Assembly (NCBI GenBank): GCA_950295325.1
Contig: OX485806.1
Span: forward strand, 41,976,001 to 42,040,000
Length of the DNA stretch: 64,000 nucleotides
Direction: 5' to 3'
Source: Polytrichum commune
Taxonomy: Eukaryota; Streptophyta; Polytrichopsida; Polytrichales; Polytrichaceae
In this document: piece after piece, positions 11,269 to 13,559 of the stretch
How positions within the stretch are numbered: the first letter of the stretch is position 1
How the letters are laid out: the number at the start of each line of letters is the position of its first letter
The notes under the pieces: generated by a model
The model's input: the letters and a program-made list of their open reading frames with translations, nothing else
What the model was told of the DNA's origin: nothing
Database searches by the model: none
Program-made: the position numbers and the translations under genes

Positions 11269-12590
11269 CGCATGAACAAGAAGGCCATCATCAAACCTTC
11301 GAAAATACTTGGTTCACCATATTAAGTGGACCTTATTGGTGGCCAACAAGAAAAAAAAACGTATCAAGCTATTGCGAAGAATGTCCGGTCTGCTCACGAC
11401 GAATTGAGGGAAGAGTACATGAACAAGAAAACAATACTCTAGTACTAGATTCGACATCCGACGACGAGTCAACCACGAAAGAAAACCACGCGACGGATTG
11501 GAGAACACCCTATTTTGAGTACCTAAGAAATGGACAAATACGTGGAGAAAATATTACCAATGAAAAACAACTTCAATGGGCAAACAAATGCAAGCGGTTT
11601 GTTCTCAACGGAGGAACTTTGATAAGATTACGACCCAACGGAGATACGCGAATATGCATCACACGAAGTCGAGGAGGAAAGATAATAGCAGGAACCCACA
11701 ACGGAAAGGGCAAGCACTTGACCTTATCCATGACTAAACAATTAATATTTTTAATCCTTATTGGTGGCCTACGATCGACAAAGACATCAAATATCATGCG
11801 GAGTATGAATGTGAAGAATGTATGCTAAAACTCGATGCGAAGCAAGAAGAGATGAATGTAAAGGATAAACAAACTACTACATTAAAGGAGATGTCACCAT
11901 CCGATTGGAGAAAACCTTACATCGAATACTTGTTATTCAGTAAGGTAATTATTGATATCTTAACTAGATAAGAAAAACATTGGATTGCTAATAGAAGCCA
12001 ATTCTTCGCCATCATGAATGGGAAACTAATGAGACGATTTGTCGCCAACGAGATACCCAAAGAATGCATCTCGGAGAATCGGATACTAGAGTTTTTAAAG
12101 GAACTCCATGGGAAACATCAAACATGCAAAGAGATGATAAAATAGGCCGCACAAGGACCATATTGGTGGCCTACCATGACTCACGACATTCGAAGTTTTA
12201 TCAAGCAAAATTCTAATTACAAGCAAAGAAATGGTACTACACTAATTCAACCAGGGAGTAATTCAACTAAATTAGATTGGAAAAAACCAATAATGAAATA
12301 TTTAAACCATGGAAGAACCGAACATCGAGATCTATTTGAACAAGAATATGGAACTTACTTTATGGAAGAAGAAGAATTACAAAAGCAAGTAAACCACGGA
12401 GAAAGTAAAATATGTATCGCGGGAGACCAAATCAAGCATCTAATCAAAAGGGTACATGAGCAAAATGGTTGTCACCTCAACCCGAACGATACAATTCAAC
12501 ATATACTCAACGGGCCTTATTGGTGGCCTACCATAGTACAAGATACGGATGATTATATCAATGAAGAATGCCCAAAAATGTAAAAAAAAT
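11269..12590 (+). pseudogene. tandem integrase H2C2 zinc-binding modules (family D), units 1-4
   Basis: Four successive copies of the module that normally occurs once before a Ty3/gypsy integrase. Each full unit has a DWRxPYxxYL-type entry (about 11,485, 11,899, 12,270), an IxNGxLIR-type strand, an H-x(3-6)-H histidine pair, then PYWWPT, and an acidic CxxC. The PYWWPT codons lie near 11,330, 11,760, 12,160 and 12,515. Unit 1 keeps all ligands (HEQEGHH, then SYCEECPVCSRR). Unit 2 keeps ECEEC after a frameshift. Unit 3 has lost its cysteines (IRSFIKQNSNY). Unit 4 keeps one (INEECPKM). Units are 355-430 bp and very different in sequence outside the motifs. Frameshifts (about 11,750) and stops (about 11,970 and 12,145) show it is no longer functional. 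A fifth, normal unit follows and leads into the integrase core. No RT precedes it: the left edge is the telomeric repeat. Confidence 0.75.
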
Positions 12591-12636
12591 ACAACAACTA
12601 AAATATAATGCGGGGCGATTACTACCGATCCACAAG

Positions 12637-13559
12637 AAGATTGGAGAAAACCATTTAATGACTACCTATCACATGGGAGATTGACAACATCGGCGACAGT
12701 TTCTCAAAGACAACAAATAGCGATAAGAAGTAGACCTTTTCAACTAGTCAATGGGAACCAATTAATCAAAGAAGGAGCCGATGGGATGAAACGACGATGT
12801 GTCTCCGGACCGATAACCGAGGCGATCATCGCCGAAGCACATGAAGGCATTGCGGGAGGACATTTTGCGGTAAACATTACATTACATAAGATATTGACAG
12901 TTCTTTATTGGTGGCCCACTATGAAAAGGGACTTATATATGTATTGCAAACAATGCGACATATGCCAAAGAGTGGGACCAAAAGTATCCAAGTCATCACA
13001 ACCAGTACATCCAATTATGCCTACGGAAGTATTCCAGAGATGGGGGTTGGATTTTATAGGACCAATCAATCCCTCGGCCAAAGGTACTTAAAACAAATAT
13101 ATCATTACTGCCACAGACTATACTACCAAATGGGTAGAAGCAAGAGCACTTAAGGATAATACCACAACATCTACCGCAAGGTTCATATTTGAAGAGATCA
13201 TCACCAAATTCGGATGTCCGATCGAACTAGTTAGTGACCAAGGGAGTCACTTTCTAAATGAGACAATCCAAATATTAACTAAGACATTCATGGTCTTACA
13301 TCGCAAATCGACAACTTATTACCCTCAAGCTAATGGCCAAGCCAAAAGCACCAACAAGGTCATCAAAACAACAGTTACCAAGATGATAAATGTTAATCGC
13401 ACGGATTGGGACACTAAACTATACGCGGCATTATGGGCGTATAGAACGGCGTATAAAGTCACTACCAAGCATACACCATTTTCATTGGTATTTGGAACGG
13501 AAGCATTACTTCCATTAACATTCATCTACAACAAAATCAAGAATGGCATCCTGTTCTAA
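12637..13559 (+). pseudogene. Ty3/gypsy integrase: H2C2 unit 5 and catalytic core (family D)
   Basis: The frame opens with DWRKPFNDYLSHG (12,637), passes through ARCVSG-like RRCVSGPITEAIIAEAHEG and the zinc finger (HEGIAGGH, then YCKQCDICQR), and enters the rve integrase core. The first catalytic Asp lies in RWGLDFIGPI and the second in ELVSDQGSHF. At the third position the usual PQ-x-NGQAE is PQANGQAK: codon 13,344-13,346 is AAA instead of a Glu codon. One in-frame TAA (13,089-13,091) interrupts an otherwise continuous frame, with NKYIITATDYTTKWVEARAL directly after it. The frame then shifts near 13,525 into the C-terminal domain. Integrase inserts the element's cDNA into the host genome; this copy cannot be active. 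Confidence 0.85.

Follow-up and report, generated by a model that had tools for sequence, protein, structure and literature searches.

The 64,000-nucleotide stretch of Polytrichum commune DNA analysed here (contig OX485806.1, positions 41,976,001 to 42,040,000; hereafter the window) contains a dead, 5'-truncated relic of a Ty3/gypsy retrotransposon family with a five-module array in its integrase. Tandem integrase modules of about 120 aa, each composed of an N-terminal extension domain (NED)-like part and a zinc-binding HHCC part and located between RNase H and the catalytic core, are almost certainly a real architecture kept by selection. We suggest that all modules but the one next to the core form a specialised multivalent arm, and give the architecture and this arm, taken jointly, a probability of roughly 0.73.

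An earlier analysis made from the letters of the window alone (the sequence-only reading) had proposed five tandem H2C2 modules in one Ty3/gypsy pol, with PYWWPT motifs every 355-430 bp. Both points are borne out. In brief, 29-mers coding for PYWWPT are found at 11331, 11756, 12158, 12515 and 12903, giving five copies with spacings of 425, 402, 357 and 388 bp, and a six-frame scan of the whole 64 kb found no further [YF][YFW]WP[TS] motif. A module hidden Markov model (HMM), for which 38 seeds from public relatives were used (120 positions), matches all five modules with E-values from 1e-6 to 4e-33 when the window frames are read with X at stops; an extra, weak match lies far from the array at 32839-33030 (E 0.0015). 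Pfam Integrase_H2C2 is found in four of ten open reading frame (ORF) pieces, three of them above the curated cut-off and the piece at 11738-11971 below it. It is followed by rve in the piece at 13092-13559, which is the expected order.

The modules had also been said to keep their motifs and to differ strongly elsewhere. The difference is confirmed by a unit-to-unit DNA identity of 48-55% within the array. The conservation holds for PYWWPT, which is present in all five modules, but only in part for CxxC: modules 1, 2 and 5 have the whole motif, and it reads N..Y in module 3 and C..M in module 4. Module 1 is represented by its C-terminal half only, because most other copies are homologous to the window copy only from 11267 onward, and DWR therefore occurs four times and not five. 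The catalytic E of two public relatives, P0001 and P0002, is K in the window. The copy lacks its 5' end and is broken by stops and frameshifts into several frames. The coordinates of all features are given in Table 1.

Public protein relatives were collected with module 5 plus the core as query, which gave 155 matches. Among the best 120 of these, five proteins at 69-76% identity have three to six module matches in one ORF, and none of the rest exceeds about 55% identity. A second search, using the array part of P0005, gave 17 matches and added 11 proteins, so that the array lineage comprises 16 public proteins (P0001-P0005 and P0121-P0131). Fifteen of the 16 have at least three module matches (3-7, partial ones counted); the exception is P0130, a deletion form with one match. 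In P0131 the RNase H is directly followed by modules 1-3, and P0128 begins at the RNase H end. P0129, a close relative of the window copy, encodes modules 2-5 without a change of frame, and every ligand is present. A module match was found in 159 of the 169 collected proteins, and 138 of the 159 have one only. The remaining 21 are 15 array-lineage proteins, P0007 and P0013 with two nearly complete modules each, P0078 with two partial modules, and P0069, P0118 and P0149, in which the matches are far apart and look like fused or repeated elements. The one-module-per-integrase rule of the HHCC domain (PF17921) is thus broken in the array lineage, which has 5 or 11 modules, and 8 in one locus (L036). 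The alternative that related elements carry a single module fails for the close relatives, and holds as a rule for those at about 55% identity or less. Scans of viral and genome contig collections with P0005 gave no relative.

Two observations on individual proteins should be mentioned. P0125 and P0130, both public JGI proteins, share a junction at which A7 is followed directly by the C-terminal region, A8 and the catalytic core being absent, and are perhaps a propagated deletion form. P0007 encodes two H2C2 modules and the integrase core, with an aspartyl protease following the integrase, which is an unusual order.

The assembly that contains the window (407.8 Mb in 64 contigs) was searched with P0129 (modules 2-5 and the start of the core) and with the seven-module protein P0121; all match counts are lower bounds. 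The P0129 query gave at least 123 matches. At least 16 loci (L009-L024) match its residues 1-535 at 77-80% identity, and five of the 16 are stop-free (L011, L012, L016, L017 and L018). Five complete modules are encoded in one ORF in L011, L012 and L016; five modules are also found in L010, L017 and L018, with the first cut short, and in L029, with the last cut short. P0121 gave at least 59 matches, 24 of which span almost all of the query in a single frame (14 stop-free), and a further upstream block was found at eight loci. In a sister family in the same genome, three of three long stretches (L039, L040 and L041, picked for their long open frames) encode eleven modules in one ORF each. L036 shows eight modules; the boundary of the stretch falls within the first of them, and a stop interrupts the last. 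At C5:27129517 (3,264 aa) and similar loci the extra block is absent and the frames fall short by about three modules; these are probably eight-module forms. Intact copies with the repeated modules in one frame are therefore present in the same genome, and together with the public ORFs they support the new integrase architecture that the sequence-only reading had envisaged.

A copy of the eleven-module family on contig C6 is an element of about 21.3 kb, whose long terminal repeats (LTRs) are 100% identical over 2,375 bp, which indicates a very recent insertion. The LTRs have TG..CA ends, and the 5-bp target-site repeat CTAGA is found on both outer sides. A single frame of 3,716 aa encodes gag, reverse transcriptase (RT), RNase H (RH), eleven modules and the core. 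Pfam finds Retrotrans_gag above the cut-off, zinc knuckle and Asp protease matches below the cut-off only, and RVT_1, RT_RNaseH, H2C2 and rve; gag, RT and RNase H lie upstream of the array and the core downstream. With the order gag, protease (PR), RT, RH, integrase (IN), and with its LTRs, TG..CA ends and 5-bp repeat, the C6 copy is a Ty3/gypsy (Metaviridae) LTR retrotransposon. A separate 847-aa ORF between pol and the 3' LTR (L043:1736-4276) looks coiled-coil-like by eye and matches no Pfam family. No LTR pair was found for the five-module copy L012 in two flanking stretches, which may have missed them.

Selection was measured as the ratio of nonsynonymous to synonymous substitution rates (dN/dS) by NG86. 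For 14 pooled five-module copies, L023 and L024 being excluded because their translations are identical to that of L022, dN/dS is 0.17, 0.25, 0.24 and 0.10 for modules 2 to 5 and 0.04 for the start of the core. Module 1, measured in three copies, has a dN/dS of 0.13, and the whole stretch in the five stop-free copies has 0.16 (bootstrap 0.13-0.20). In three eleven-module copies the modules have values of 0.05-0.24, the linkers 0.52, RT/RH 0.037 and the core 0.035. Between orthologous modules, dN/dS is thus 0.05-0.25. The zinc ligands are especially well kept: ligand columns of A1-A7 deviate from the group majority in 3.8% of cells, compared with a mean of 20.7% over all 122 columns (permutation p 0.0004). 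All four ligands are present in 41 of the 46 A1-A7 rows that have all four cells (summed). Read by eye, all ligands are present in 11 of 11 modules of L039 and in 10 of 11 each of L040 and L041.

The charge of a module depends on its position. The IN-proximal module carries +4 to +9, and the module of single-module relatives +4 to +6. Among the accessory modules A1 has -5 to -11, A3 +8 to +12, A6 -5 to -9 and A7 0 to -6, and this position-specific charge is largely kept between copies and sources. The sequence-only reading had suggested multivalent binding to DNA or chromatin; since several modules are strongly acidic, plain DNA binding by all modules is argued against. We suggest that the IN-proximal module does ordinary intasome work, and that the others together make up a specialised, multivalent arm whose partners differ. 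The basic ones among them may contact DNA, and the acidic ones may have basic partners, for instance histones, host factors or sister modules. Such an arm would anchor the integration complex on chromatin or support a larger intasome. Its role and partners are inferred.

The strongest competitor, which we consider unlikely, is that the element's own protease releases the modules as individual small zinc proteins, nucleocapsid-like or accessory factors, which are not part of the integrase. In its favour, the linkers, with 14-34 aa between HMM matches in L039, are variable and have a higher dN/dS than the modules, and P0125 and P0130 join array modules to the C-terminal part without a core. However, several modules are acidic, which nucleocapsid zinc knuckles are not, and the array occupies the place of the integrase N-terminal domain (NTD). 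Much less probable is a passive expansion, in which the module was multiplied through unequal crossing-over and its additional copies are tolerated as spacer. The varying number of modules, the duplication of three of them as a block (see below) and the loss of zinc ligands in some would fit this, but a dN/dS well below 1 in each module, ligand columns that deviate far less than the mean column and the charge kept at each position would not. That separate elements lie side by side, or that the window copy alone underwent a fresh tandem duplication, as its several frames taken alone might suggest, is refuted by many loci that share the module order and whose DNA is 83-90% identical to that of the window along the array, by one-frame ORFs elsewhere and by the 48-55% identity between units. 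Chance was likewise rejected.

Several points weigh against the arm and the architecture as we read them. The copy samples for dN/dS are small (14, 5 and 3), and some synonymous distances (dS) are near saturation (A7 1.5, A8 1.3). Module 3 lacks CxxC in 16 of 16 in-frame loci of this genome, and the A6 ligands are lost in L040 and L041; zinc binding is therefore not needed in every module. The predicted structures are of low confidence, with a pLDDT of 33 for the AlphaFold2 model of P0005 (five modules). A prediction for window module 4 (pLDDT 58) has a helix, beta-strands and three helices, as expected for NED plus HHCC, and is too weak for a claim. In a third search, with candidates of about 1,150-3,675 aa, none of 73 public matches was a full-length array polyprotein.

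In an unrooted tree of 72 module sequences, each array position groups across sources, A8 only weakly (88/13), and one branch (100/99) parts the IN-proximal modules (A8 and B5) and the modules of relatives from all accessory modules. It should be noted that the few columns per module limit deep resolution in this and in a second tree. In the latter, module 1 of the eleven-module array pairs with module 4 (100/99), module 2 with module 5 (100/98) and module 3 with module 6 (100/99), which indicates that a block of three modules was duplicated. The block copies share 56-72% of residues, with synonymous differences near or at saturation. The sequence-only reading had proposed an old amplification, kept under selection before the window copy died, and this age and the dN/dS of well below 1 in each tested module agree with it. 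In the five-module family, module 1 groups with A1 (98/89) and module 4 with A6 and A7 (97/95), so that the array is, at least in part, older than the divergence of the families. L034 and L036 carry second and third modules of the first-block type; the shorter arrays may therefore be older, or may have arisen by block loss. Given these first-block type modules, a plain expansion of eight modules to eleven is not established. All four modules of P0007 and P0013 fall on the side of the single-module relatives, and the two modules in each protein are thus probably an independent duplication.

In the textbook view, the integrases of retroviruses and LTR retrotransposons have one zinc-binding domain at the N terminus. 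The integrase of prototype foamy virus (PFV; PDB 3l2q and others) has the NED plus HHCC NTD layout with a single NED-NTD. Module 5 matches it in the PDB (E 2.7e-8), and one accessory module aligns weakly with its residues 30-131 (E 0.005), whereas the array elements have many NED-NTDs. P0007 and P0013 resemble the array elements in having two NED-NTD modules before the core, but their modules side with those of single-module relatives.

Module 5 also matches the yeast Ty3 integrase (PDB 7q5b; E 2.5e-5), which, according to its description (PMC8632968), likewise has a NED, an HHCC N-terminal domain, an RNase-H-fold core and a C-terminal domain. The Ty3 enzyme has one NED-NTD per subunit and a chromodomain, whereas the elements described here have five to eleven NED-NTD modules. 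In the five-module family, unlike in Ty3, the C-terminal domain is doubled. Two C-terminal domains, which we take to be GPY/F-like, are found in five of five five-module copies (L011, L012, L016, L017 and L018), and one in each of five copies of the sister family within the stretches examined; those of the window have no Pfam match. The integrase of the five-module family is thus extended at its C-terminal end as well.

Plant Ty3/gypsy lineages have the order gag-PR-RT-RH-INT with extra ORFs in some, and the accessible parts of the survey by Neumann et al. 2019 (PMC6317226) give aRH, CHD and CHDCR as extra polyprotein domains and no multiplied zinc modules; the word zinc occurs 0 times in its main text. 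The array elements differ from the Tat/Ogre type in that no additional RNase H was found before the integrase in the C6 copy: in its piece L039:2-2200, which ends just before the array, only RVT_1 and two RT_RNaseH families were found (E <=0.01), and no second RNase H (PF00075 or PF13456). They differ from chromoviruses in that no chromodomain follows the integrase, neither in L039:6353-8212 (E 0.01) nor in the window ORF pieces (E 1). Tandem integrase HHCC modules are not described in the accessible parts of the open-licence full texts searched with the terms used, including PMC6317226, PMC5348765 and PMC8632968.

A lineage with up to eleven distinct, individually selected N-terminal modules, one copy of which was very recently inserted, breaks the single-domain rule. 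It offers a natural experiment on what a NED-HHCC unit can bind and on how intasomes and chromatin targeting evolve. As single modules are only about 120 aa long, this is directly testable. Going further, we tentatively propose, with somewhat less than even odds, that NED-HHCC has become a repeat domain. Five to eleven modules would form a position-specialised arm, in which every module has a partner of its own (DNA, a histone, a host factor or a sister subunit), and the arm would be altered by block duplication. It might recognise chromatin multivalently or allow a large intasome to be assembled from few subunits, in one family in combination with the doubled C-terminal domain, and clustering on one chromosome would reflect targeting. 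At least 71 array loci were found when P0129 and P0121 matches were merged within 8 kb. Contig C4, with 14.5% of the genome, carries 23 of them (binomial p 1e-4), compared with 26 of 150 scored ordinary H2C2 matches (Fisher p 0.015, among the matches listed and with lists that possibly overlap). Beyond 40 Mb on C4 the counts are 18 of 71 and 12 of 150 (p 0.001, among the matches listed), with a boundary chosen post hoc. This clustering may hint at targeting, and the same pattern would arise if copies were retained where recombination is low.

Table 1. Features of the array copy in the window, in window coordinates.
Feature	Position	Strand	Basis
Short CCCTAAA repeat at the breakpoint; array copy truncated here	11243..11266		Sequence; most other copies homologous from 11267
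Module 1, C-terminal (HHCC) half only	11267..11423	+	Module HMM E 2e-14 (11268-11423); full length in L011, L012, L016
Module 2, split over two frames	11496..11845	+	Module HMM 11496-11747 E 3e-16, 11750-11845 E 1e-6
Module 3, CxxC lost, two in-frame stops	11903..12232	+	Module HMM E 1e-28; ligands read
Module 4, last Cys lost	12275..12589	+	Module HMM E 5e-27; Pfam PF17921
Module 5, IN-proximal canonical HHCC module	12639..12995	+	Module HMM E 4e-33; Pfam 6.8e-15; PFV and Ty3 integrase matches in PDB
Integrase catalytic core (rve), interrupted, catalytic E to K	13092..13559	+	Pfam rve 6e-9; P0001 and P0002 compared
First C-terminal GPY/F-like domain	13757..13996	+	85-96% identical in 5 five-module copies; dN/dS 0.08
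Second, duplicated GPY/F-like domain	14090..14329	+	37% over 38 aa to first, E 9e-8; 5/5 five-module copies; dN/dS 0.38
Third-ORF remains downstream of pol	15452..16446	+	tblastn to 847-aa ORF of C6 copy, E 1e-21 and 7e-8

The CCCTAAA repeat at the breakpoint is of the plant telomere type and adjoins an oppositely oriented ORF at 10346-11257, which was labelled gag-like by eye. A minus-strand ORF at 19650-20111 contains the motif VDLTCSTGAS..., which we take to resemble a methyltransferase. Elsewhere in the window, tandem repeats are found at 29937-30646, with units of about 116-120 bp, and at 1363-1754, with units of 56 bp.
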